NCBI GenBank assembly: GCA_945883565.1
Contig: CAMCXO010000001.1
Span: 62,001 to 126,000 of the forward strand
DNA from: Chryseobacterium gleum
Lineage (GTDB): Bacteria; Bacteroidota; Bacteroidia; Flavobacteriales; Schleiferiaceae
Direction of reading: 5' to 3'
Length of the DNA stretch: 64,000 nt
How positions within the stretch are numbered: the stretch's first letter is position 1; every line of letters begins with the position of its first letter. Below the pieces are notes generated by a model that searched no databases, was not told where the DNA came from, and saw only the letters and a list, made by a program, of their open reading frames with translations. Of this stretch, positions 16,029 through 47,965 are shown in pieces. The translations under genes were made by a program, and so were the position numbers.

Positions 16029-16102
16029 CTTCATAACTTATTAGTTAGCAATTTTATAATCTATTCCATTTGGATTATTTCTGAATTTTAAGATACTGAC
16101 AA

Positions 16103-16131
16103 TTTGTCACGACCTCAATTCCGTATTTTTG
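16103..16131 (+). promoter_or_regulatory. miaB: Bacteroidota-type promoter for miaB
   Basis: TTTG at 16103-16106, a 17-base spacer, then TATTTTTG (16124-16131), an exact TAnnTTTG box. It sits in the 149-base gap between uvrA and miaB and leaves a leader of about 40 bases before the TTG start. Spacer is at the short end of the known range. Confidence 0.6.
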
Positions 16132-16177: not shown

Positions 16178-17593
16178 TTGGAAAACACAATCGAGTCAAA
16201 TAGTATGCTTGAATCTACCCTTAAAAAGGGAATGAAACAACTTTATATTGAAAGCTATGGGTGTCAGATGAATTTTTCTGACAGTGAAATAGTGGCCAGT
16301 ATTTTGGCAACCGAAGGCTATTCAACAACCCGGGAATTGGAAAAAGCCGATTTAATATTGTTGAACACTTGCTCGATACGAGAAAAAGCAGAACAAACTG
16401 TTCGAAATCGGATTCAACATTTTCATCAACTTAAAAAAACTAACCCAGAACTCACAATTGGGGTCTTGGGCTGTATGGCAGAGAGAATGAAAGAAAGGCT
16501 ATTGGATGAAGAAAAACTAGTTGACTTAGTGGTAGGACCCGACGCTTATCGCGATTTGCCGAATTTGTTAAAAGAAGTTGATGGGGGTCGAAAAGCCGTA
16601 AATGTTATTTTAAGCAAAGATGAAACTTACGGCGAACTTCAACCGGTTCGTCTTGGTGGAAATGGGGTAACCGCATTTATTACCATAACAAGAGGCTGCG
16701 ACAATATGTGTTCGTTTTGTGTTGTACCCTTTACCCGTGGTCGTGAAAGAAGTCGCAATCCGGATACAATTGTTCAAGAAGCTCTTCAACTATGGGATTT
16801 GGGCTATAAAGAAATTACTTTATTGGGGCAAAATGTAGACAGTTATTTATGGTATGGAGGTGGTGCAAAAAAAGACTTTGGTAAAGCTTCTGATACGGCT
16901 CAAGCTACTGCCATGCACTTCTCCGGGTTGTTATCAAAAGTAGCAGAAGCGGTTCCCGGTATGCGCATAAGGTTTTCGACCAGCAATCCTCAGGATATGA
17001 AAGATGATGTTCTACACACAATAGCGAGGTATAAGAATATATGCAACTACATACACCTGCCTGTTCAATCAGGGAATAGCAGAATACTCAATTTAATGAA
17101 TCGTGGCCATTCACGAGAAGATTATGTGGCATTAATAGATAGAATAAGAAATATTATTCCGGATTGTGGATTGAGCATGGACATAATTACCGGTTTCCCA
17201 ACTGAAACCGAAGAAGAACACCAAGAAACTCTGAGTTTAATGGATTATGTAAAATACCAATTCGGCTTTATGTTTTTCTATAGTGAGCGTCCAAACACGT
17301 ATGCCGCTCGAAATTTAGTCGATGATGTTCCATTGGAAGTTAAAAAACGACGTTTAAGTGAGATTATAGAACTTCAGCAAAAACATAGTTTGGAAAGAAA
17401 TGAGGCGGAAATTGGAAAAATTCATGAAGTACTTATAGAGGGCGAATCGAAAAGAAGTAAGGAGCATTGGTATGGAAGAAACCAACAAAATACAGTAGTG
17501 GTTTTTAAAAAGAAATTTGAAAATCCCGGTGATTTTATTAATGTTAAAATAGAATCCTGCACAGCGGCTACATTATTAGGTAACAGTATTTAA
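16178..17593 (+). CDS. miaB: tRNA-2-methylthio-N6-dimethylallyladenosine synthase
   Basis: Radical-SAM methylthiotransferase that turns i6A37 into ms2i6A37 in tRNAs reading UNN codons. Seen: the N-terminal UPF0004 domain with the three cluster cysteines in SYGCQMNFSDSE, LNTCSIREKA and LGCMAERMK; the radical-SAM CDNMCSFC; and a C-terminal TRAM domain (about 405-471). 471 residues is standard. The start given is TTG (16178), which places a 30-residue leader before the first domain as in relatives; ATG at 16205 is the alternative. The next partner enzyme, MiaE, is encoded 5.6 kb downstream on the other strand. Begins the miaB / secreted unknown / sigma-54 / lptE / TPR / secG run. Confidence 0.96.
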   Translation: MENTIESNSMLESTLKKGMKQLYIESYGCQMNFSDSEIVASILATEGYSTTRELEKADLILLNTCSIREKAEQTVRNRIQHFHQLKKTNPELTIGVLGCMAERMKERLLDEEKLVDLVVGPDAYRDLPNLLKEVDGGRKAVNVILSKDETYGELQPVRLGGNGVTAFITITRGCDNMCSFCVVPFTRGRERSRNPDTIVQEALQLWDLGYKEITLLGQNVDSYLWYGGGAKKDFGKASDTAQATAMHFSGLLSKVAEAVPGMRIRFSTSNPQDMKDDVLHTIARYKNICNYIHLPVQSGNSRILNLMNRGHSREDYVALIDRIRNIIPDCGLSMDIITGFPTETEEEHQETLSLMDYVKYQFGFMFFYSERPNTYAARNLVDDVPLEVKKRRLSEIIELQQKHSLERNEAEIGKIHEVLIEGESKRSKEHWYGRNQQNTVVVFKKKFENPGDFINVKIESCTAATLLGNSI

Positions 17594-17603
17594 ACATCAT
17601 GCT

Positions 17604-18011
17604 ATGCTAAAGTATGTAAGTATTCTCTTTTTTATTTTCGGAACATCTAACTTAATAAACGCTCAGGAAAGAATAGGGGATAAGATATATGATAATGATT
17701 TGAGCATTGCAATAGTTAAAGAAAATGTTAGAAAAGTGGGATTTGTAGAAATTTGTATTTTCAACAGACGAGATAACCTTTGTGTCGAGAATTTATTTAC
17801 CGCTTTCGAAATAAGGGTCTACGACAAAAGTGGTAAGGAAGTCTGGAATGGATTGTGGATGGGCAGAGATAAAAAGATTAAATTTAAGAAACCCTTGCCA
17901 AATGCCTTTAAAATAATCGTTACGGCCAAAAAGCCTTTTGCCATAAATGCGATTACCGGTACTAAAATATATCAAGACAAACCCATGCAAGTTGAAACCA
18001 TTGTAAAATGA
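17604..18011 (+). CDS. Secreted small protein of unknown function
   Basis: Not recognised. 135 residues with a clear signal peptide (hydrophobic core about residues 5-18, cleavage after INA before QERI). The mature part is mixed charged and beta-rich, with two cysteines (VEICIFNRRDNLCVE) close enough to form a disulfide, and a lysine-rich C-terminal half. It reads like a small single-domain beta protein. It lies 10 bases after miaB, and its stop overlaps the start of the sigma-54 regulator gene (ATGA), so it is probably co-translated with it. Real gene judged from signal peptide and operon packing. Confidence 0.7.
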   Translation: MLKYVSILFFIFGTSNLINAQERIGDKIYDNDLSIAIVKENVRKVGFVEICIFNRRDNLCVENLFTAFEIRVYDKSGKEVWNGLWMGRDKKIKFKKPLPNAFKIIVTAKKPFAINAITGTKIYQDKPMQVETIVK

Positions 18012-19264
18012 GTAATCAAGTTCAAGACATAAAGCAACGCTTTGGGCTCATTGGCCATTCACCATTACTAAACAGGGCCATACTAAAGGCTATACAGGTT
18101 GCCGGAACAGATATTGGCGTTTTGGTTACGGGTGAAAGCGGAGTTGGAAAAGAAAGTATACCGCGAATTATTCATGCCTTATCTGCAAGAAAGCATCATC
18201 CTTATATTGCAGTAAATTGTGGTGCTATTCCTGAGGGCACCATAGACTCAGAACTTTTTGGGCACGAAAAGGGTGCTTTTACCGGTGCTAGTCAGCTTAG
18301 AAAAGGTTATTTTGAAGAGGCACATGGAGGCACCATTTTTTTAGATGAAGTTGGAGAACTACCTTTATCAACTCAGGTTCGATTGCTTCGGGTTCTAGAA
18401 ACCGGAGAGTTTATTAAAGTTGGGTCTTCAAAAATCCAAAAAACCGATGTTCGTATTGTGGCGGCCACCAATGTAAACATGCAGAATGCCATAAAGAATA
18501 ATAAGTTCCGTGAAGATCTGTATTATAGGCTCAATACAGTGGAAATCCATCTGCCGGCATTACGTGAAAGACCCGAGGATGTCTTGCTCTTATTCCGAAA
18601 ATTCGCTGCCGATTTTGCCGAAAAGTATCGATTACCAGGTTTGAAGTTAAGCGAAGACGCCGGTGATATTCTTGGCCGTTATCGTTGGCCCGGAAATATT
18701 AGACAATTGCGCAATTTGGCTGAGCAAATTAGTGTAGTGGAACACGACAGGTATATTAACTCAGAAATTTTGTTGAATTATTTGCCTGAGGCTGAAAAAA
18801 GTGATTTGCCTGTGGCTTTAGGGAGTTTTAAAAATGAAAGCGATTTTGCAAGTGAAAGAGAAATTCTTTATAAAATATTGTTCGACATGCGAAACGATAT
18901 TAACGATTTGAAAAAGTTGACGCTGGAATTAATGAAACACAATGGAAGCGTTGAAGCTTTTCAAGAAACCCATGAAGGATTAATTTCAAAGGTTTATGGT
19001 GAATTCACACCTGTTCCTCAAAACCGTTTTATACCAGTTTCTACGCAAGATAATGGCTCAAATGTTAGCACTGAAATTAAGGAAGATATTTTTAAAGAAG
19101 CCGTTACCATAGATGAAAATGATACCTTGCGTTTGGACGAACGAGAATTGGAGCTTATTAAAAAAGCTCTTGAACGAAACAAAGGAAAGCGTCGAAATTC
19201 AGCAAGGGAATTGGGGATTTCTGAACGCACTCTATACAGAAAAATTAACCAGTATGGCCTTTAA
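18008..19264 (+). CDS. Sigma-54-dependent activator without receiver domain
   Basis: AAA+ enhancer-binding protein that remodels RNA polymerase-sigma54. Seen: the AAA+ domain begins almost at residue 10 (LIGHSPLLNRAI), with Walker A GESGVGKES, the sigma-54 contact loop GAFTGA, Walker B GGTIFLDEVGEL, sensor arginines in RYRWPGNIRQLRN; then a linker of about 100 residues and a C-terminal Fis-type helix-turn-helix (KGKRRNSARELGISERTLYRKI). There is no N-terminal sensory domain, so activity may be set by expression or by a partner. The gene overlaps lptE by 11 bases. The position between miaB and lptE is one I recall as conserved in Bacteroidota. Confidence 0.93.
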   Translation: MSNQVQDIKQRFGLIGHSPLLNRAILKAIQVAGTDIGVLVTGESGVGKESIPRIIHALSARKHHPYIAVNCGAIPEGTIDSELFGHEKGAFTGASQLRKGYFEEAHGGTIFLDEVGELPLSTQVRLLRVLETGEFIKVGSSKIQKTDVRIVAATNVNMQNAIKNNKFREDLYYRLNTVEIHLPALRERPEDVLLLFRKFAADFAEKYRLPGLKLSEDAGDILGRYRWPGNIRQLRNLAEQISVVEHDRYINSEILLNYLPEAEKSDLPVALGSFKNESDFASEREILYKILFDMRNDINDLKKLTLELMKHNGSVEAFQETHEGLISKVYGEFTPVPQNRFIPVSTQDNGSNVSTEIKEDIFKEAVTIDENDTLRLDERELELIKKALERNKGKRRNSARELGISERTLYRKINQYGL

Positions 19265-19758: not shown

Positions 19759-20793
19759 ATGAATGGAAATAGCATACTTGCAGCGTTGGAAAATATAGAA
19801 TCCGGTGAATTTTTGGATTCTGAATCCTTATTGTTGAGATTAAACAATGAGCCATATAATGCTGCATTAAGATTGCTATATTTAAAAGCCCTTCAAAAAG
19901 AAAAGGCATTAAAGCTGACATTTGAAATACAAAAAGCTTCCGCGTTTTTACCGTCTAGAAAAATTTTGCATAAACATTTCTATACGCCTTTAGCCCAACC
20001 TATCCCTGTATTAGAAGGCCGAGATGAAATGGCTGTTAACTCAAAGGTAAATTCAGATACTTCAGTAAATCCTGCTTCTATACAATTAGAATCAACCAAA
20101 AATCGAATTAAAGCCATTTTGGAAGCCAATAGAAAAATGCGTTCCGAAATAGATGATGTAAAAATAGAAAACAAAAAAAGTGAAACGACGGAAATTTTAA
20201 ATCCGACTATAATCATTGCTTCAAAAAACACCCAAGAAGTTGGTGAAGAACAATATCGTTTACTTGACAAGGAAATTCTAACGAATGGCGGTATTACGAT
20301 AGAGGGCGATCCTTCGGATTCAAATCATGAAAAATCAGCATCATTAGAATTTAAGGAAGAATTAAAGAATTTAGGTTCAAAAGAACTAGAAGTCGTTTCA
20401 AACATTTATTCTAAGGATGATTCTCAAAAACCTAATCTAGAAACACATAGTATTGTGCAATGGATGCATTTGCTGAACAATCAAAAATCAAACAACCGAA
20501 AAAACAAGGTGGTTGAGCAGCTTGATGCCATCGATGGGTTCTTAGAGGCCTTGCCTAAGCTAAAACCGGATCCTAATAAGCCTCAGCGCAATGATGTTTT
20601 ATTGATTGATAATAAATCAGATAATGAAATGGTTACAGAAACTTTGGCTAAGTTGTACTTAGAACAAGGGTATCTGAAGAAAGCAAGACAGGCTTTTGAA
20701 ATTCTTAGCTTGAGATTTCCGGAGAAAAGCAGTTTCTTTGCGGCCCAAATAAAGCAGATTAAAATTCTGCAAAAAGAGAAAGGTAAAAAATGA
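19759..20793 (+). CDS. TPR-like cytoplasmic protein of unknown function
   Basis: 344 residues, no signal peptide. The N-terminal 75 residues are helical and TPR-like (LEDSESLLLRLNNEPYNAALR-type pairs), the middle (about 80-230) is low-complexity, charged and probably disordered, and the last 60 residues contain a good tetratricopeptide unit (TETLAKLYLEQGYLKKARQAFEIL). Its stop overlaps the secG start (ATGA). Proteins like this sit between lptE and secG in other Bacteroidota as I recall; a link to envelope biogenesis or secretion is inferred from position only. Confidence 0.75.
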   Translation: MNGNSILAALENIESGEFLDSESLLLRLNNEPYNAALRLLYLKALQKEKALKLTFEIQKASAFLPSRKILHKHFYTPLAQPIPVLEGRDEMAVNSKVNSDTSVNPASIQLESTKNRIKAILEANRKMRSEIDDVKIENKKSETTEILNPTIIIASKNTQEVGEEQYRLLDKEILTNGGITIEGDPSDSNHEKSASLEFKEELKNLGSKELEVVSNIYSKDDSQKPNLETHSIVQWMHLLNNQKSNNRKNKVVEQLDAIDGFLEALPKLKPDPNKPQRNDVLLIDNKSDNEMVTETLAKLYLEQGYLKKARQAFEILSLRFPEKSSFFAAQIKQIKILQKEKGKK

Positions 20794-21179
20794 CAACACT
20801 AATTACTGTGCTTATTGTTTTGGTTAGCGTAATGCTAATACTCATTATTATGGTTCAAAATCCCAAAGGTGGAGGATTGTCATCGGCTTTTGGAGGAAGT
20901 GGTGCTCAACTCTTGGGCGGGGTTAAAAAGCAAACCGACTTTTTGGATAGAGGCACTTGGACATTAGCTGTGGCATTGTTGGTATTGGTTTTAAGCTTAA
21001 ACCTATTCTCAGGTAGCAGCAATACCGAAGAAGTTCAAGAAAGTGCCTTACAAGAACAGTTAGATGGCTTTTCTGCACCGGTAGTGCCTCAACAAAATGC
21101 ACCCTCAGGCTCGCCTGAAACCGAAAATACCCAAACTCCTGAAGCAAACCCGGGAGAAATGCCAGAACCCGTAGAATAA
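20790..21179 (+). CDS. secG: Preprotein translocase subunit SecG
   Basis: Small inner-membrane subunit of the SecYEG channel. Seen: first TM (about 3-22), the conserved QNPKGGGLSSAFGG loop, and a second TM (WTLAVALLVLVLSLNLF). The C-terminal 50 residues form a hydrophilic Pro/Glu-rich tail, usual in Bacteroidota SecG. 129 residues. It closes its operon: a strong rho-independent terminator follows 20 bases after the stop. Confidence 0.95.
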   Translation: MTTLITVLIVLVSVMLILIIMVQNPKGGGLSSAFGGSGAQLLGGVKKQTDFLDRGTWTLAVALLVLVLSLNLFSGSSNTEEVQESALQEQLDGFSAPVVPQQNAPSGSPETENTQTPEANPGEMPEPVE

Positions 21180-21200
21180 GTCGATTTTATCTTAATTATA

Positions 21201-21225
21201 GTCCCGCTTAAAGCGGGATTTTTTA
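21201..21225 (+). terminator. Rho-independent terminator after secG
   Basis: A GC-rich hairpin (TCCCGCT / AGCGGGA, 3-base loop) at 21202-21218 is followed by a run of T residues (21219-21224). Placed 20 bases after the secG stop. Confidence 0.85.
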
Positions 21226-21237
21226 TTTGTTTGAATT

Positions 21238-22089
21238 TTGCAAATCAAACTTACAAGCAATGAAAAAACGGCCATAAAACACATGGTCTTTTCAGTAGCT
21301 GGTTTTGCCCTAATGAACTTAATTGTAAAGTTCCTGCAAAGAATTCCACCCACAGAGTTGGTTTTGTTTCGAAGCCTCGTTTCTTTGGTTCTAAGTGCGT
21401 GGTTTATACACCGTCAAAAGCTAAATCCTTGGGGAAATCAGAGGTTAATACTCATTTTACGAGGTCTATTTGGTGCAATAGCTTTAACGTTGTTTTTCTA
21501 TTCTTTACAAAAATTGCCATTAGGGACGGCACTTATTATTCAATATTTATCGCCGATATTCACAAGTTTATTCGCCATTTTTATATTAAAAGAACCCATG
21601 CGGCATGCACAATGGGTTTTCTTTGCCATTTCTCTTTTAGGCGTAGTTATAATAAAAGGTTATAACGCCAATTTATCGCCCTATTTGTTGGGATTAGGGG
21701 TTTTGTCGGCCATATTTAGTGGCTTGGCCTATAATATGGTGAGATTACTCCGAGATACCGAAGCACCAATAGTGGTGGTGTTTTATTTCCCATTGGTGGC
21801 CACCCCCATTATGTTGGTTTTTAGTTTAAGTATTTGGGTAATGCCCTTGGGTTGGGAGTGGGGAGGTTTGCTGCTGATGGGAATACTCACGCAATTTGCT
21901 CAATTACAAATGACCAAAGCCCTTCAGAAAGCCACATTAAACCGAATTGCAGGTTTCAAATATTTGGGCGTTGCCTTCGCGCTTATTTTTGATATAGTCA
22001 TTTTTAATGTACAATACGCCTACACTGCCATTATTGGCATGTGCATGGTTATACTTGGCGTTGTTTTAAACTTAATTTCCAAAAAATAA
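21238..22089 (+). CDS. EamA/DMT-family transporter
   Basis: Inner-membrane drug/metabolite transporter with ten hydrophobic segments in two EamA repeats (first about 15-140, second about 150-280). Motifs: PPTELVLFRSLVSL after TM1 and [26 protein letters not shown] at the end of repeat 1. 283 residues is normal. The start is uncertain: TTG at 21238 gives a 15-residue leader, while the first in-frame ATG is 21283, right at TM1; a GAATTTTG box overlaps the TTG, which would favour the later start if it is the promoter. The stop is eight bases from the converging gcvT stop. Confidence 0.85.
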   Translation: MQIKLTSNEKTAIKHMVFSVAGFALMNLIVKFLQRIPPTELVLFRSLVSLVLSAWFIHRQKLNPWGNQRLILILRGLFGAIALTLFFYSLQKLPLGTALIIQYLSPIFTSLFAIFILKEPMRHAQWVFFAISLLGVVIIKGYNANLSPYLLGLGVLSAIFSGLAYNMVRLLRDTEAPIVVVFYFPLVATPIMLVFSLSIWVMPLGWEWGGLLLMGILTQFAQLQMTKALQKATLNRIAGFKYLGVAFALIFDIVIFNVQYAYTAIIGMCMVILGVVLNLISKK

Positions 22090-24102: not shown

Positions 24103-24570
24103 ACATCAAGGCCCATTTTCAAAAGCACCAAACCCACTTCAAAAGCGTTTAGAGCCATTTAAACGGCATCCATGCCCATTTAAGAAAGCATCTATACCCA
24201 TTTACAATGCGTACATGGCCACTTAAAGCCAGTACATGCCCATTTACAATGTGTACAAGGCCACATAAAGAGTATCCATGCCCATTTACAATGCGGACAT
24301 GGCCACATAAAGAGCATCCATGCCCATTTATAAAGCATCTATACCCATTTACAATGCGTACATGGCCACATAAAGAGCATCCATGCCCATTTAATAAAGC
24401 ATCTATACCCATTTACAAAACGTAAATGGCCACTTTAAAGGCATCCATGCCCATTTAATAAAGCATCTATACCCATTTACAATGCGTACATGGCCACTTA
24501 AAGGGCATTCATATCCATTTACAAAATGTACATGGCCACTAAAGGGGAATACATGCCTATTGACAGCGCG
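24103..24570. repeat. Tandem array of ~21-bp units with ~63-bp higher-order order
   Basis: About 22 units of 20-22 bases. Three variants recur: A (CATCCATGCCCATTTA plus AT filler), B (CATCTATACCCATTTACAA) and C (GTACATGGCCACTTAAAG). Between about 24316 and 24505 they follow the fixed order A-B-C three times, giving a 63-64 base period; the flanks are more degenerate. Because the period is a multiple of three, long open frames cross it on both strands, but the translations are monotonous and unlike protein. No spacers of unique sequence, so not CRISPR. Confidence 0.85.
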
Positions 24571-24678
24571 TTTAAAGCCAATAAAGTTTGGATTTACGAC
24601 AGGCAGGCAGACGGCTACACCTTAGACGATAAGCCAAACAAATTACAGAAAGCGATTTACCCGACATTGTTGGAAAAT
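24565..24678 (+). pseudogene. Relic of a type I restriction-modification HsdM gene
   Basis: A 38-codon stretch in one frame contains KVWIYDRQADGYTLDDK, which closely matches the C-terminal region of type I DNA methyltransferase subunits (consensus like VWFY..ADGYSLDDKR). No other part of hsdM, and no hsdS or hsdR, is present around it; the array of 21-bp units abuts one side and the 72-bp repeat the other. Read as a fragment left from loss of a restriction-modification locus. Identification rests on one motif. Confidence 0.5.
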
Positions 24679-24681
24679 ATC

Positions 24682-24945
24682 GTCTGCGAACATCTGCGGA
24701 ATCTGTGGGACATTAGTATTGACCGCTGATTGCGCAGATATACGCAGAAACACATCAGCAAAAATCAGAGGTACCTGCGAGGGGATTTTAGTTCCCGCTG
24801 ATTGCGCAGATGTACGCAGAAACACATCAGCGAAAATCAGAGGTACCTGCAAGGGAATTTTAGTTCCCGCTGATTGCGCAGATATACGCAGAAACACATC
24901 AGTGAAAATCAGCGAGGTCTGCGGGAGATTAGTATTGCCCGCGGT
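24682..24945. repeat. 72-bp tandem repeat, three copies
   Basis: Units begin with CCGCTGATTGCGCAGAT at 24723, 24795 and 24867, exactly 72 bases apart, and differ at a few positions. They contain several variants of a CGCAGA / TCAGCG / CTGCGGGA word. The junctions read GGGANATTAGTATTG at the outer ends and GGGANTTTAGTTC inside. The left flank (24682-24709) carries related words in the opposite sense. Both strands stay open because 72 is divisible by three, but no coding signal is seen. Similar CTGCG/CAGAT-rich repeats are, from memory, scattered in Bacteroidota intergenic DNA. Confidence 0.8.
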
Positions 24946-25021
24946 TTGCACAGAACCCAATTTGCCCAAATGGTAGAAAAAACTGAAGCCCTCAAATGTC
25001 CTTCAAAACCCCAAACTGAGC

Positions 25022-38421: not shown

Positions 38422-39318
38422 ATGTTCGAACCTTTGTTTTTAAATCAAGGAGATTGTATTGGTTTAACCGCTACAGCACGATTCTTGCCTGAAAATGAAT
38501 TAGAAAGAGCCATTAAATATATTGAAAATGCTGGATTTCAAGTTGAGATAAGTGCACATTGTACAATAGCATTTAATCAATTTGGCGGGAATGACAAGGA
38601 ACGCGCACACGATTTTACGGCCATGCTCGAAAACGAAAGAGTTAAAGCTATTTTCGGTGTTCGAGGAGGTTATGGCACAGTAAGAATGCTTGATTTGGTT
38701 GATTGGGAAGTATTTACTAAAAATCCAAAGTGGATTTGTGGCTACAGCGATTTAAGCATTTTGCATGGAAGAATTCAAAATTTAGGGTTTCAGAGTTTGC
38801 ATTGCAGTATGCCCGTTAGTTTTCATGCTTTGGATTTAAAGGCCATGGAGCAAACTTGGGATTGTCTTTTGGGTAAGTTGCCGACTTATAAAGGAAAAAA
38901 GCATTCTTTACAGGTTAATGGAAAGGCAGAAGGGGTTCTTTTAGGAGGCAACTTAAGTGTACTATACAGTGCTTTAGGCAGTAATGCATTTCCTTCGATG
39001 ACCAATGCCATATTGTTTTTAGAGGATGTTGATGAATACCTTTATCACATTGATAGAATGTTATTTGGACTTAAAAGATCGGGTGCACTTAATGGAATAA
39101 AAGGCCTATTGATTGGCGGGTTTAGTGCGATGCGCGATCATGAAATAGGTTTTGGTTTAAACGTAGAAGAGATAATTCATTCGCTTTTTGGCGATTGGCA
39201 AATACCCATAGTTTTTGGCTTTAGTGCCGGGCACATAGCGGCTAATTATCCACTCGTTTTAGGTAGAGAAGTTGATTTGGAATCTGGAGATAATGGTTGG
39301 GAACTTAGGTTTTGTTAG
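38422..39318 (+). CDS. LD-carboxypeptidase (S66 / LdcA-like)
   Basis: Cytoplasmic serine peptidase that removes D-Ala from murein tetrapeptides during wall recycling. Seen: KGD-like GDCIGLTATARFLPENE start, the nucleophile region FGVRGGYGTVRMLDLVDW (GxxGG), ICGYSDLSILH, and GGNLSVLYSALGS; C-terminal FGFSAGHIAANYPL with the catalytic His. 298 residues from ATG 38422, which matches the family N-terminus; the frame extends upstream to 38344 only through the opposite-strand metG. Its stop overlaps the converging sigma-54 regulator gene by four bases. Confidence 0.9.
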   Translation: MFEPLFLNQGDCIGLTATARFLPENELERAIKYIENAGFQVEISAHCTIAFNQFGGNDKERAHDFTAMLENERVKAIFGVRGGYGTVRMLDLVDWEVFTKNPKWICGYSDLSILHGRIQNLGFQSLHCSMPVSFHALDLKAMEQTWDCLLGKLPTYKGKKHSLQVNGKAEGVLLGGNLSVLYSALGSNAFPSMTNAILFLEDVDEYLYHIDRMLFGLKRSGALNGIKGLLIGGFSAMRDHEIGFGLNVEEIIHSLFGDWQIPIVFGFSAGHIAANYPLVLGREVDLESGDNGWELRFC

Positions 39319-40469
39319 GCGAATCGTTTAACATTTTCTGCTGTTATAGTTTCATCGCCTAAAATGAGGAGCCTTTCGACCAAATTCCGAAGCTGTCTTA
39401 TATTTCCACTGTAATCAATGGATTTTAAAGCCTCTAAAGCCCCTTGATCAAATTTACGGAGCGGCATGTTTTCTTGTTCTGAAAGAATTTGAGCAAAATG
39501 TTGAACCAAATCCGGAATATCTTCTTGACGATCGTTTAATGAAGGAACCCTAATGTTAATAACACTTAACCGATGGAACAAATCTTCACGGAATCTTCCA
39601 TTTTGTATTTCCATTGGTAGATTTTTATTGGTCGCAGCCAAAACACGTACGTTTACCGAAATGCTTTTATCGCCTCCTACAGGCGTTATTCGGTTTTCTT
39701 GTAAAGCCCTCAAAACTTTAGCCTGTGCATCGAGGCTCATATCGCCGATTTCATCTAAAAACAAAGTTCCGCCATCGGCTAATTCAAATTTACCCTTCCT
39801 ATCTTTCACAGCCGAGGTAAAAGCCCCTTTGGTATGACCGAAAAGTTCACTTTCGATAAGTTCTGACGGTATTGCAGCGCAGTTTACTTCTATAAATGGC
39901 ATTTTAGAGCGCATACTGCGTTCGTGAATGCTGTGGGCCACCATTTCTTTTCCGGTGCCATTGGCCCCTGTAATGAGCACACGGGCATCGGTTGGCGCAA
40001 CCTTTTCAATAATTTGTCTAACATCTGAAAGAGCAGGGGAGTGGCCTACCATTTCGTAGCGACCTGAAACTTTGTTTTTCAATTGCTTAACCTGTGCAAC
40101 CAATTTTGTTTTATCTAAAGCGTTGCGAACTGTATTAAGCAGTCTATTAAGGTCTGGTGGTTTGCTTATAAAGTCATATGCACCTAAACGCATACAATTA
40201 ACAGCAGATTCTAAATCGGCATGTCCCGAAATCATTACCACGGTAGTTTCAGGGCATTCGGTTTGGAAATGTGTTAGAACTTCAATGCCATCAGCTTTTG
40301 GCATTTTTATATCGCACAACAGCAAATCGAATCCTTGGCTGGCCATGGCCTTAGCCTCTTCGCCATTTTCCGCTTCACTTATTTGCCAATGTTTGTTTTC
40401 GTCGTTGAGGATGTTTTTTAACACCCTCCGAATGGCTTGTTCGTCTTCCGCAATAAGAATTCTAGACAT
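39315..40469 (-). CDS. Sigma-54 response regulator without DNA-binding domain
   Basis: 384 residues: receiver (1-120) with EDE, phosphoacceptor Asp53 in LLCDIKMP and Lys103 in ISKPP, then an AAA+ sigma-54 activation domain with GANGTGKE (Walker A), GAFTSA in place of GAFTGA, GGTLFLDEIGDM (Walker B) and the YSGNIRQLRNLVERL C-terminal part. It stops at KRFA with no Fis-type helix-turn-helix, which NtrC proteins normally carry. No frameshift is evident. It may activate from solution or rely on a partner. Overlaps the Ppx gene by eight bases. Confidence 0.92.
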   Translation of the reverse strand: MSRILIAEDEQAIRRVLKNILNDENKHWQISEAENGEEAKAMASQGFDLLLCDIKMPKADGIEVLTHFQTECPETTVVMISGHADLESAVNCMRLGAYDFISKPPDLNRLLNTVRNALDKTKLVAQVKQLKNKVSGRYEMVGHSPALSDVRQIIEKVAPTDARVLITGANGTGKEMVAHSIHERSMRSKMPFIEVNCAAIPSELIESELFGHTKGAFTSAVKDRKGKFELADGGTLFLDEIGDMSLDAQAKVLRALQENRITPVGGDKSISVNVRVLAATNKNLPMEIQNGRFREDLFHRLSVINIRVPSLNDRQEDIPDLVQHFAQILSEQENMPLRKFDQGALEALKSIDYSGNIRQLRNLVERLLILGDETITAENVKRFA

Positions 40470-44505: not shown

Positions 44506-45615
44506 TCAAGATTGGAACATTTCTTTTACGCGCTCAAAGAAGCTTTTTTCCTTTCGTCCCGGCTCAGGGTTGAAATTAGGAAGTGCACGCCATTTTTCCA
44601 TGATTTTCTTTTGCTCAGAATCTAATGACTTAGGAGTGTACACATTAATGTGCACCAGCAAATCGCCTCTTCCATATTGATTAACTGCAGGCAAGCCCTT
44701 GTTTTTTAAACGTAAAATTTGACCACTTTGGGTTCCTGCCTCGATTTGGATTTTCGCTTTACCGCCAACTATAGGTACTTCAACAGATGAACCTAAAGCA
44801 GCATCTGGGAACGAAATGTATAAATCATAATGTAAATTTTGATTTTCACGTTTTAAATCATTGTGTTCGATTTCTTCAACTAATACGATTAAATCGCCGG
44901 ATTGACCTCCAAATGGACCGGAGTTGCCTTGTCCAGACATTTTTAACTGCATACCATCTATAACGCCAGCTGGAATTTGAATACTCACAACATCATCCTT
45001 CTCAACAAGCCCATCCATTTGAACGCCGGCAGGTTTGTGGTCTATTACTTTTCCGGAGCCTTGACAAGTTGGGCAGGTACGCGCTGTTTGCATTCTGCCA
45101 AAAACCGTATTGGCCATTTGCACCACCTGACCTTGACCACGGCAGGTTCCACAGGTTTTAAATGTAACCCCTTCTGCGGGAACTAAGCGTTTGATTTTAA
45201 GTTTTTTCTCCACTCCATTTGCAATTTCATCTAGAGTGAGTTTCACTTTTATTCGAAGGTTACTTCCTCTATTTTGGCTTCTCCCTCCGCCAAAACCGCC
45301 AAATGCACCGCCGAAAGTGTCGCCAAAAATGTCGCCAAACTGTGAGAAGATGTCGTCCATGCTCATGCCGCCGCCAAATCCACCCCCATTGCCCATTCCT
45401 GAATGGCCATATTGGTCGTAGCGTTGTTTTTTCTCGGAATTGCTTAATACCTCATAAGCTTCGGCAGCTTCTTTAAATTTCTCTTCTGCTTTAGGATCGT
45501 TGGGATTTTTATCAGGGTGAAATTGTATAGCCAGTTTGCGATAAGCTTTTTTAATTTCATCGGCCGAAGCATTTCGGTTTAGTCCTAGAACTTCGTAATA
45601 GTCTCTTTTTGCCAT
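44506..45615 (-). CDS. dnaJ: Chaperone DnaJ, with only two zinc-finger repeats
   Basis: Hsp40 co-chaperone stimulating DnaK. Seen: J domain (1-70) with HPD at 33-35, a Gly/Phe-rich linker (72-112), a cysteine region with only two CxxCxGxG repeats (Cys155-Cys158 and Cys181-Cys184), and the two C-terminal substrate-binding domains. Canonical DnaJ has four such repeats; the first and last are missing, so at most one zinc site can form. 369 residues. Follows grpE after two bases; dnaK is not in the window. Confidence 0.96.
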
Positions 45616-45617
45616 TT

Positions 45618-46214
45618 TTATTCTCCGATTACAACTCTGGCAAAGCGAATAATTTTATCGCCTAACCTATACCCTTGTTCTATAACGTCCACTACTTTGC
45701 CTTTTAAATCATTGTTAGGGGCCATTATTTTGGTGATGGCTTCCATTCTATCTACATCGAAAAGGTCTCCAGTTTGTATCTCAAGCGATTTCAAGCCTTT
45801 AGAAATCAAAGTGCTTTTAAATTTGTCGCGTATAAGGTCAAAACCTTGAACAAATGCGCTGTTTTCCAATTCGACTGGAAGGCTTTTACCGGCACGATCA
45901 AAATCATCTAAAACCGGCAAAAGAGCCGTCATAAGCTCTTGGTTCGCAGAAGCAAATAATTCAATGCGTTCTCGCGCAGTTCGTTTCCTAAAGTTTTCAA
46001 AGTCGGCAAACAATCGAAGATAGCGGTCTTGAAAATCATCGGATTTCTCTGTGTTTGTTTGAGATGTACCAGCTTCAACTACAGGTTCTTGTGTTTTATT
46101 CTCATTTAACTCTGAATCAGTTAAAGTTTCGTTCCCTATGGCTTCTCTGGTGCTATTCGAAGTTTCTTTCTCTTGCAATGGCACATCGCTTTCCATCTTT
46201 TTGTCTTTGCTCAT
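45618..46214 (-). CDS. grpE: Nucleotide exchange factor GrpE
   Basis: Exchanges ADP for ATP on DnaK. Seen: acidic low-complexity N-terminus (about 1-65), long helix with [20 protein letters not shown], then the beta domain with [41 protein letters not shown]. 198 residues is typical. The promoter region upstream contains a palindrome and a sigma-54-like element (46253-46294). First gene of a chain that runs to 39.3 kb. Confidence 0.96.
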
Positions 46215-46252
46215 AATTTGCTTTTTCTAAGTTTCATATCGTTATTAAAAAA

Positions 46253-46294
46253 TACAAAGCCCTTGCCACAATTCAATTCCTGCCACCTTGGCAG
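46253..46294 (-). promoter_or_regulatory. grpE: Palindrome and sigma-54-like promoter upstream of grpE
   Basis: On the minus strand, a perfect 6+6 palindrome with 3-base centre (CTGCCA-N3-TGGCAG, 46280-46294) is followed by TGGCAAGGGCTTTGTA (46253-46268), which fits the sigma-54 consensus TGGCAC-N5-TTGCA with the GG conserved and GC reading GT. The predicted start point lies about 30 bases before the grpE ATG. No TAnnTTTG box is seen in this gap. Confidence 0.5.
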
Positions 46295-46324
46295 ACTTCT
46301 TTTCAAATTAGCTACAAAAAATGA

Positions 46325-47965
46325 TTAGCGTGGCAATTTATAAGTGTGTTTTAATTGAAGAGAATTAATAGCATTTGGTTCAAGATTTTTCCATCCTTTT
46401 TGATAAAATCTATAAACTTTATCATAATACAAAGGAACTATTGGCGCGTTATAAACAACTAAAGAATCAAGATTTTTATAAAAACCAAAGCGAATACTAT
46501 CATTTTGGATACCTAATGTTTTATTATATATCGAATCAAATGCATCAGAACTATAAAATGTGTAATTCGGCCCATTTGGGGCAGCATTTTTTGAATAAAA
46601 AAGCGATAAGTAGTTTTGAGCATCCGGGTAGTCAGCAATCCAGGAGCCTCTGAATGTCGATAACTTGCCATTGGCCATTCCTTGGCGCAGAGCGCTGGCC
46701 GGCAATAATTCTATTCGTATTGGAATGTTAAATCGGCTTAAAGATGCTTGAATATATTCGCATAAATCCTGATAGGGTGCCGTTGTAAAAAGCTTTAACT
46801 CCGTCAATCCTGTTCCATTTGGATAACCCGCGCGATTCAGCAAAGCAATTACAGAATCGGGTGAATAGGTATACATTTTTTTTAGGTAAGCACCAGGCAA
46901 AGCCGGAGGGATAAATCCCGATTGGGCGGGGAAAGCTGCATTCCTTCTTAAATATTTTACCATTTCTGTTCTATCGAAAGCATAGTTTATGGCCCTTCTA
47001 ACAAGCGGATTCAAATAAGGGCTTTTATCACCATCGGGGTAAGCTTCCGGTTTCAGTGCAAATCCTAAGTACTCAGTATTAAGATAATAAGATTCGCTCA
47101 ACTCTAAAAAGCCTGAATATTCGACACTTAATTTGCCTTCTTCGGTTAAAACCTGGTTTACATAAGATGGATCCAGACCCGATATAAAGTCGATTTTACC
47201 TTTAATTAACTCAAGAAAAGCCGATTGTTTATCGGGTAGAAAGCGGATAGAAATGGCATCAAGATAGGGCAGAGCATGGCCATTGTGGTCTGTTTCAAAA
47301 TAATTCGAGTTTCTCCGTAACACCAACTTTTCATTAAGGAGCCATTTTTTAAAAATGAAGGGACCGGTTCCGATAGGACTATAAGCCCATTGAGAACCTA
47401 GGCATTCTACAACCTCTTTTGGCACAACGCTGCAATATGCCATACTCAGCATACCGGTAAAGGCTGGAAATTTTTCTTTAAGGAGAAATACAAGAACCGA
47501 GTCATTTTCGGCATAAACCGAATCGACCATTTGCATTATCCAACTGCCAGGAGAAGCAAGTTTCGGATCAACCAGTCTATTAAAGGAATAGACCCAGTCA
47601 TTCGCTTCCACAAAACGCGTACTGTCTTTTCCAAAACACGGATGTTTGTGAAAATAAATATTTGTTTTTAATTCGAAACGATAAATCAGTCCATCATTTA
47701 AAGTTTCCCATTTTTTACAAGCCAATGGCTTTGGAAGTAAATTGCTATTATTTAATTCCACTAAGCAAGAAAAAACTTGGGTTACAGGCCAAATAGCACT
47801 TTGAACTCTAGCAAACGCGGGATCTAGAGATGATATTCCAGACGATTCGTTGTATTTAAAAATGAGAAATTCCTTTGATTTCTTAGAATCAGAATCACAA
47901 GCTGATATAATCAATATGAGAACTAAAACTTGATATAAAATATAGAAAGATTTATTCTTGCCCAT
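46325..47965 (-). CDS. Peptide-type ABC solute-binding lipoprotein (family 5)
   Basis: Extracytoplasmic receptor of the OppA/DppA type. Seen: signal peptide with lipobox LIISACDSD (Cys23), SSGISSLDPAFARV near the start, the ligand pocket segment SPIGTGPFIFKKW and NPLVRRAINYAFDR, and GSWIADYPDAQNYLSLFYS. 546 residues is typical. No ABC permease or ATPase partner of this import type is nearby. It overlaps the DinB-like gene by 14 bases and is last in the BatA operon. Confidence 0.9.
   Translation of the reverse strand: MGKNKSFYILYQVLVLILIISACDSDSKKSKEFLIFKYNESSGISSLDPAFARVQSAIWPVTQVFSCLVELNNSNLLPKPLACKKWETLNDGLIYRFELKTNIYFHKHPCFGKDSTRFVEANDWVYSFNRLVDPKLASPGSWIMQMVDSVYAENDSVLVFLLKEKFPAFTGMLSMAYCSVVPKEVVECLGSQWAYSPIGTGPFIFKKWLLNEKLVLRRNSNYFETDHNGHALPYLDAISIRFLPDKQSAFLELIKGKIDFISGLDPSYVNQVLTEEGKLSVEYSGFLELSESYYLNTEYLGFALKPEAYPDGDKSPYLNPLVRRAINYAFDRTEMVKYLRRNAAFPAQSGFIPPALPGAYLKKMYTYSPDSVIALLNRAGYPNGTGLTELKLFTTAPYQDLCEYIQASLSRFNIPIRIELLPASALRQGMANGKLSTFRGSWIADYPDAQNYLSLFYSKNAAPNGPNYTFYSSDAFDSIYNKTLGIQNDSIRFGFYKNLDSLVVYNAPIVPLYYDKVYRFYQKGWKNLEPNAINSLQLKHTYKLPR

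Follow-up and report, generated by a model that had tools for sequence, protein, structure and literature searches.

Introduction

The genes grpE, dnaJ, dnaK, groESL, htpG, and the Clp genes are targets of sigma-32 (RpoH) and of HrcA/CIRCE, and, from the viewpoint of Escherichia coli or Bacillus, the control of chaperones by sigma-54 is unusual. We know of no textbook answer as to what drives the heat-shock genes of bacteria without HrcA (and, to our knowledge, without sigma-32), which include abundant gut and marine Bacteroidota.

The closest described system is that of Flavobacterium psychrophilum, for which the accessible parts of the report describe mapped 5' ends with the -24/-12 motif of sigma-54 (SM4) at groESL, lon, dnaK, grpE-dnaJ, htpG, clpB, and skp, together with a reporter mutagenesis that covers the gliding operon and, in those parts, not the chaperones (PMC9723704). 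An in-silico survey, of which a portion was available, found the predicted sigma-54 genes of Bacteroidota and Planctomycetota to be enriched for GroEL, GroES, IbpA, GrpE, DnaJ, and DnaK, and states that grpE depends on sigma-54 in both Bacteroides thetaiotaomicron and F. psychrophilum, and that groES does so in the former (PMC12316311). The polymerase bearing sigma-54 requires an AAA+ enhancer-binding protein (PMC7057263, from an extract of the text). The insect symbionts Walczuchella, Uzinura, and Blattabacterium retain RpoN, which the available part of one account calls unusual, suggesting a role in nitrogen use (PMC3971599); Sulcia is not among the symbionts that it names as retaining the gene.

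The present analysis concerns a window of 64,000 nucleotides, and in particular the region preceding grpE-dnaJ. This region very probably combines the sigma-54 promoter of these genes with a site for an activator encoded at 18008-19264 of the same window, the binding and the activation both being inferred from the sequence. A relative is already known to have sigma-54 at grpE; the palindromic site (dyad), its phasing, the proposed autorepression, and the proposed identity of the activator are new to the extent that this could be established. No description of these four was met in the open full-text literature searched, the string "palindrom" does not occur in the main text of PMC9723704, and neither it nor "upstream activating" occurs in PMC12316311.

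The region upstream of grpE-dnaJ

The features discussed here are listed in Table 1. A gap of 110 nt separates the stop of the solute-binding protein gene from grpE, with both genes on the minus strand, and grpE and dnaJ probably form one transcription unit. The identities originally assigned to these two genes from the reading frames alone were borne out by Pfam.

Table 1. Coordinates of the features under discussion, numbered from the first letter of the window.
Feature	Position	Strand	Remarks
Dyad TGACAATTTGTCA before the miaB-activator operon	16097..16109	strandless	Proposed autorepression site
TATTTTTG (TAnnTTTG), -7 box of the sigma-A type before miaB-activator	16124..16131	+	Downstream of the dyad
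miaB	16178..17593	+	PF00919, PF04055, PF01938; listed start TTG; upstream gene of the activator operon
Receiver-less sigma-54 activator (candidate)	18008..19264	+	418 aa; Sigma54_activat 14-181 with GAFTGA, AAA lid, Fis-type HTH
secG	20790..21179	+	PF03840
Receiver-type PF00158 protein	39315-40469		Response_reg and Sigma54_activat; loop GAFTSA, not GAFTGA
dnaJ	44506..45615	-	Next gene after grpE; PF00226 and PF01556
grpE	45618..46214	-	PF01025
Predicted grpE transcription start	46240..46244, about 46242	-	Sigma-54 geometry, unmapped
Sigma-54 -24/-12 element TGGCAAGGGCTTTGTA	46253..46268	-	GG-N10-GT
Dyad CTGCCACCTTGGCAG	46280..46294	strandless	Perfect; core TGNCA-N3-TGNCA at 46281-46293; proposed enhancer-binding protein site, without binding data
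Solute-binding protein gene	46325-47965	-	PF00496; neighbour upstream of grpE

Within this gap, the original prediction had placed a perfect palindrome and, 11 bp downstream, a sigma-54-like element with GG-N10-GT in place of GG-N10-GC, and had seen no TAnnTTTG box. Each of these statements holds: the palindrome is CTGCCACCTTGGCAG, 11 nt separate it from TGGCAAGGGCTTTGTA on the transcribed strand, the variant ending is present, and no TAnnTTTG exists on either strand of 46215-46324. When the second G of the GG pair is taken as -24, the transcription start would lie at about 46242 and the centre of the dyad at about -45, an inference from sigma-54 geometry alone, given that the start is unmapped.

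The region fits the pattern of a sigma-54 promoter (GG-N10-GC, in full TGGCAC-N5-TTGC), but imperfectly, as the -12 element reads TTTGTA, with a T where GG-N10-GC has its final C, which is a minority form. Of 64 aligned sites, 31 have C at this position, 26 have A, six have T, and one has G. A second criterion, that the genome encodes both sigma-54 and an enhancer-binding protein, is also satisfied, with rpoN at G000:C10:11593 and three PF00158 proteins.

The palindrome family CTGNCANNNTGNCAG occurs only once in the 2.86-Mb genome from which the window was taken. Scans of a single element are powerless on their own: at a tolerance of two mismatches, the window contains the palindrome about as often as chance predicts (2 matches versus 1.62 expected), and the sigma-54 half is not above chance (32 matches versus 34.9 expected). 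The dyad and the sigma-54 element as a pair, at the given spacing, are above chance, since they constitute the sole strict-composite match in this genome and a reversed-pattern control returned no match in 99 genomes of the order, on either strand. A chance origin of the composite was ruled out by this genome count, the reversed control, and the shuffles described below. An Rfam scan of the window recovered only a single tRNA. Elsewhere in the window, positions 24149-24976 contain repetitive reading frames on both strands, with repeated peptides that include HVRIVNG and SAQSAGTKIP, which is perhaps a repeat array.

Conservation of the composite before grpE

The composite, TGNCA-N3-TGNCA followed after a gap of approximately 12 nt by TGGCA-N6-TTG, was scored over 16 fixed positions, with gaps of 10-14 nt allowed. 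A GrpE match was found in 93 of the 99 order genomes and 85 of the 88 family genomes (166 genomes in all, 12 being shared), and 112 were read, comprising the returned loci and 60 chosen regions, with L001 and L002 left out as duplicates of L003. A score of at least 14/16 was observed before grpE in 105 of the 112, whereas none of 2240 single-base shuffles of these upstream regions reached 14, and 0.31% reached 13. The gap is 12 nt in 64 loci, 13 in 33, 11 in seven, and 10 in one, with ties broken towards 12. The 64 sites whose gap is 12 show little or no variation in the G and C of either half, in the GG, or in the TTG. An alignment of grpE composite sites (A2) has 57 rows.

The seven misses of the order (L019, L037, L038, L064, and L111 at 10-11/16; L094 and L105 at 13/16) were kept in the denominator, although a wrong start or a cut contig is involved in several of the 10-11/16 loci. 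In a sample of the phylum (32 named genomes, 31 with GrpE, and 30 loci read, G178 being left out), 22 of the 30 upstream regions reached 14/17, compared with two of 600 shuffles. The composite extends to, among others, Hymenobacter, Rufibacter, Dyadobacter, Chitinophaga, Pedobacter, Prevotella, and several Saprospiraceae, and is less clean in the Bacteroidales. The eight misses are Phocaeicola, Mediterranea, Bacteroidales UBA1410, Paludibacter, Bacteroidia SKW180, Alistipes, Gracilimonas, and a Balneolales genome; within this sample of 30, then, the composite was not found before grpE in Gracilimonas or the Balneolales genome. Only some of the sub-threshold upstream regions (7/112 in the order and 8/30 in the phylum) can be put down to misplaced starts or truncated contigs. 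Because every test presented here compares genomes that are related to one another, the p values are stronger than the evidence warrants.

Conservation of the palindrome and the sigma-54 element in related grpE upstream regions had been suggested as a check of the original prediction, with its absence as a refutation. The pair does recur in both samples, at a near-fixed spacing through the order, and the prediction is thus not refuted on this count. The accompanying remark that sigma-54 control of chaperones would be unusual stands in relation to E. coli and Bacillus, and fails for the Bacteroidota, where such control looks like the rule. The sigma-54 reading of the grpE promoter is itself supported by this conservation, by the presence of rpoN, and by the sigma-54 motif mapped in F. 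psychrophilum, as far as that report was available (PMC9723704).

The gene rpoN was found in 92 of the 99 order genomes, including one of 345 kb, and was not found (PF04552) in six of the 88 family genomes. Three of these six whose grpE upstream regions were read (G104, G161, and G163) nevertheless keep the grpE composite (L068, L071, and L052, respectively), and one of them, G161, is rated 100% complete. Gaps in the draft assemblies are the likely explanation of the missing rpoN in these composite-bearing family genomes, which remains unproven. No match to HrcA was found in any of the 99 order genomes, in a search whose control was positive in seven of 14 known genomes, and HrcA/CIRCE control was rejected on the basis of this absence.

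Other chaperone genes with the element

A search of the 99 order genomes with the strict pattern, without mismatches, recovered 52 sites in 43 genomes, of which 51 precede chaperone genes: grpE (37 sites), htpG (eight), dnaK (three), and groESL (three). The remaining site lies inside an unrelated reading frame, a chance match. The grpE sites were assigned by their coordinates, which place them no more than about 260 nt before a match to GrpE, and the other 15 were read singly; the 14 target genes other than grpE were confirmed by Pfam (HSP90, HSP70, and Cpn60).

A profile built from the grpE sites only (R1) was run on 20 genomes. In the window's own genome, among the best 150 of 2136 candidates, grpE ranked first (E 0.0026), being part of the training set, and htpG (HSP90; G000:C10:42764) ranked second (E 0.008). 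In other genomes, R1 also recovers htpG, dnaK, groES, and ClpB/ClpC-type genes. The Clp-type targets of two loci (L294 and L306) carry an AAA lid domain, and the ClpB/ClpC name is partly our assumption. Matches above an E value of about 0.1, where read, looked mostly like chance; two own-genome matches (C1:129582 and C5:107413), for example, lie in other coding sequences. The weak matches also included the upstream regions of groES (L349 and L313), dnaK (L352), and miaB (L351).

The groES gene of the same genome, on another contig, is preceded by a perfect dyad, TGACACAATGGCA, followed 23 nt on by TTGGCACAGCTTTCGC, which has the GG-N10-GC form. The R1 match at this locus is weak (E 0.8), and spans the dyad region only.

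Helical phasing at groES

In 41 groES upstream regions, the best -24/-12 element was chosen regardless of any dyad, and the dyads were listed afterwards. A perfect dyad is present in 29 of these regions and absent from 12, and the gaps that separate it from the promoter element are 11-12 nt (four loci), 23 (two), 32-35 (eight), 42-43 (seven), 53-54 (two), 65 (two), and 73-76 (four). The four loci at 11-12 nt (L184, L185, L190, and L313) were excluded from the phase test, as their searches favoured a gap near 12, which leaves 25 dyads that were not chosen by their spacing.

The best period for these 25 dyads, over a range of 6-20 bp, is 10.4 bp. At 10.5 bp, R is 0.846 (Rayleigh p about 2e-8, overstated because the loci are related), and none of 20000 uniform sets reached the best R. 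When only the 14 distinct gap values are considered, p is 9e-5, and with all 29 dyads, R is 0.859 (p 5e-10). The phase at groES is 1.3, close to the 1.5 of the 12-nt gap at grpE. Of a further 20 dyads with one mismatch, 13 lie at a gap of 12-13, and the gaps of three (37, 51, and 82) do not fit the phase. One criterion for an upstream activating sequence, a dyad in helical phase with the promoter, is satisfied at groES. Given the 10.5-bp periodicity, a protein bound to the dyad would have to keep to a single helical face with respect to sigma-54, in the manner of an activator.

The candidate activator

The original prediction had located sigma-54 activator-type genes at 18.0 and 39.3 kb, and both encoded proteins do match PF00158. 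The first meets the test for a receiver-less enhancer-binding protein (a GAFTGA loop, a C-terminal Fis HTH, and no N-terminal sensor), with HTH_8 at residues 376-416, a variable linker between the lid and the HTH, and no sensor domain found. The genome has three PF00158 proteins with E below 1e-60, which are those encoded at 18008-19264 and 39315-40469, and one on another contig.

A relative of the 18008-19264 protein, at 428 bits or more, was observed in 93 of the 99 order genomes (G032 was left out, its match being to the AAA+ part only). In 82 of these 93, the alignment runs as far as residue 417 or 418, and in the other 11 it ends at 305-344. Of 20 genomes examined, 14, among them all ten with a size of 0.3-0.6 Mb, encode one strong PF00158 protein and no more. 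In each case it is the relative of the 18008-19264 protein, with 54-60% identity that begins close to the start and continues through residue 418. As a sigma-54 promoter needs such a protein, the single one present is the candidate for the composite promoters. Two other sequences, L139 (own genome) and L123, match the protein over its AAA+ part only.

The operon of the candidate activator and its promoter

Among 80 named activator loci, a match to miaB was found in 43, and the sequence upstream of it was usable in 40. A perfect dyad was observed before miaB in 36 of these 40, compared with five of 2000 shuffles. The sequence that follows the dyad differs from that at grpE. TAnnTTTG occurs within 47 nt after the dyad in 32 of the 36 perfect-dyad loci (228 of 7200 shuffles), and TGGC-N7-TTG does not occur within 100 nt after it in any of the 36. 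The distance from the dyad to TAnnTTTG is 16-20 nt in 27 of the 32 loci, and 14 nt in the window. At the usual distance, the dyad covers the -33 region of the miaB operon, which suggests that the activator represses the sigma-A promoter of its own operon, the repression itself being an inference from these positions. One site placed to block at the regulator's own operon and to activate at the target genes is the arrangement of activators that repress themselves, for example PspF, which has a Fis-type HTH and represses its own promoter, and NtrC.

In a number of relatives, groES-groEL follow secG, which is not the case in the window. Here, secG is followed by a transporter-like gene at 21179-22089, presumably of the EamA type, and groESL lies on contig C32 (L349). 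In the 345-kb genome (L304) and in three genomes of 0.62 Mb (L301-L303), the order is miaB, activator, secG, groES, and groEL, with one extra small gene before secG in the latter three; the genes were named by eye, and groES also by tblastn. The three 0.62-Mb genomes, which are of the symbiont type, carry the dyad before miaB-activator, grpE, and groES, and no dyad was present in the 80 nt read before miaB in the 345-kb genome.

In the window, miaB and the activator are separated by a 135-aa frame (17604-18011), whose N-terminus resembles a signal sequence and for which Pfam gave no match. A similar frame occupies the corresponding place in a congeneric genome (L351), and none is listed there in L301-L304. 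Two loci from outside the phylum by name, L201 (titled Rhizobium) and L252 (Caulobacteraceae), have a Bacteroidota-type activator and a dyad before miaB, and are probably misassigned contigs in metagenome bins.

Alternative explanations

The alternative that survives best, and which we still regard as unlikely, accepts the sigma-54 promoter and has the dyad bound by some other regulator, either a repressor or a second activator. There are no binding data for the dyad, and the genome has two further PF00158 proteins that could be considered, at 39315-40469 and on the other contig, but the dyad is kept in genomes with a single strong enhancer-binding protein, and it occurs at the operon of the 18008-19264-type protein itself in 36 of 40 loci. 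The 10.5-bp phase, over gaps of 23-76 nt, fits an activator that touches the polymerase, rather than a blocking repressor. The 39.3-kb protein was rejected as the chaperone activator because it has a receiver, no C-terminal HTH found by Pfam, and GAFTSA for GAFTGA; conceivably, sigma-54 is not its target.

A second alternative, which appears very improbable, is that of an ordinary Bacteroidota sigma-A promoter (-33 TTG and -7 TAnnTTTG) with an operator of which TGGCA would be a part. The Flavobacteriaceae-type sequences TACTTTTG and TACATTTG can also be read as TAnnTTTG, with a TTG some 21 nt upstream by hand count, but the region before grpE fails the sigma-A promoter test for want of this box, and over the 64 aligned sites, the TA columns of TAnnTTTG hold only 0.22 and 0.11 bits, versus 1.9-2.0 for those of GG and TTG. 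The F. psychrophilum counterparts, moreover, were assigned to -24/-12 rather than sigma-A motifs in the parts of the report at hand (PMC9723704).

The least credible alternative, an RNA hairpin (a terminator or thermometer) in place of a DNA site, draws on a terminator scan that flags 46280-46294 on the plus strand, with a T-rich tail, but both flanking genes are on the minus strand, the palindrome lies upstream of the predicted start, and the middle bases of its halves are complementary in 42 of 105 cases versus 37.2 expected, varying nearly independently, which indicates that it is no RNA stem.

Proposed mechanism and its significance

A sigma-54 promoter served by the receiver-less protein of 18008-19264 is thus the reading retained here, and it would work as follows. 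The protein would bind the dyad TGNCA-N3-TGNCA, which keeps to a single helical face with respect to the -24 element at a distance of one to several turns upstream. From there it would remodel the RNA polymerase-sigma-54 complex at the promoters of grpE-dnaJ, htpG, and groESL. In relatives, the targets would also include dnaK and ClpB/ClpC-type genes; dnaK was not located in the window's own genome. The same protein would probably sit on the -33 region of its own sigma-A promoter and repress it. The signal is inferred from the target genes to be proteotoxic or heat stress, and how it might reach a protein without a sensor is a matter of guesswork: a partner may exert negative control, in the style of PspA and PspF, or free chaperone may titrate the protein. 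There are no binding, transcript, or mutant data for the organism of the window. The predicted position of the grpE dyad, at about -45, counts against the proposal, being closer than the 100-150 bp that the consulted part of one source gives as the usual distance (PMC7057263).

On a broader scale, we incline, with some reserve, to the view that one sensor-less, receiver-less sigma-54 activator is the master regulator of the cytoplasmic chaperones across the Bacteroidota, where it would replace sigma-32 and HrcA (RpoH was not searched for), would repress itself, and would act from sites at whole helical turns. The chaperone targets would also be the reason why some flavobacterial insect symbionts of 0.3-0.6 Mb keep rpoN. 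For bacteria that lack HrcA, the proposal supplies a definite gene, a putative binding site, and a list of targets. If it is true, the heat-shock response of these bacteria runs on the energy-dependent sigma-54 machine, which would explain the retention of that machine by near-minimal symbionts.

Comparison with known systems

F. psychrophilum has three PF00158 proteins, as does the genome studied here at E below 1e-60, and the available parts of the study leave the activators of SM4 promoters unassigned (PMC9723704), whereas a candidate is proposed here. The SM4 set of that species also covers gliding and other genes (PMC9723704, same parts), so other activators must share its sigma-54. The in-silico survey, in the portion at hand, likewise names no activator for the chaperone promoters (PMC12316311).

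The PspF protein of the phage-shock response of E. coli is, like the candidate, a receiver-less enhancer-binding protein, and is controlled in trans by PspA, according to the extract consulted (PMC7057263). The 18008-19264 protein is not its equivalog, scoring 261.8 bits against a cut-off of 443.55 in NCBIfam TIGR02974. The two have different targets, and the neighbours of the 18008-19264 protein are miaB, secG, and often groESL. Heat-shock control by sigma-32 and HrcA/CIRCE, finally, has a target set that overlaps with that of the system of dyad and sigma-54, and the two differ in the type of promoter and in their logic.
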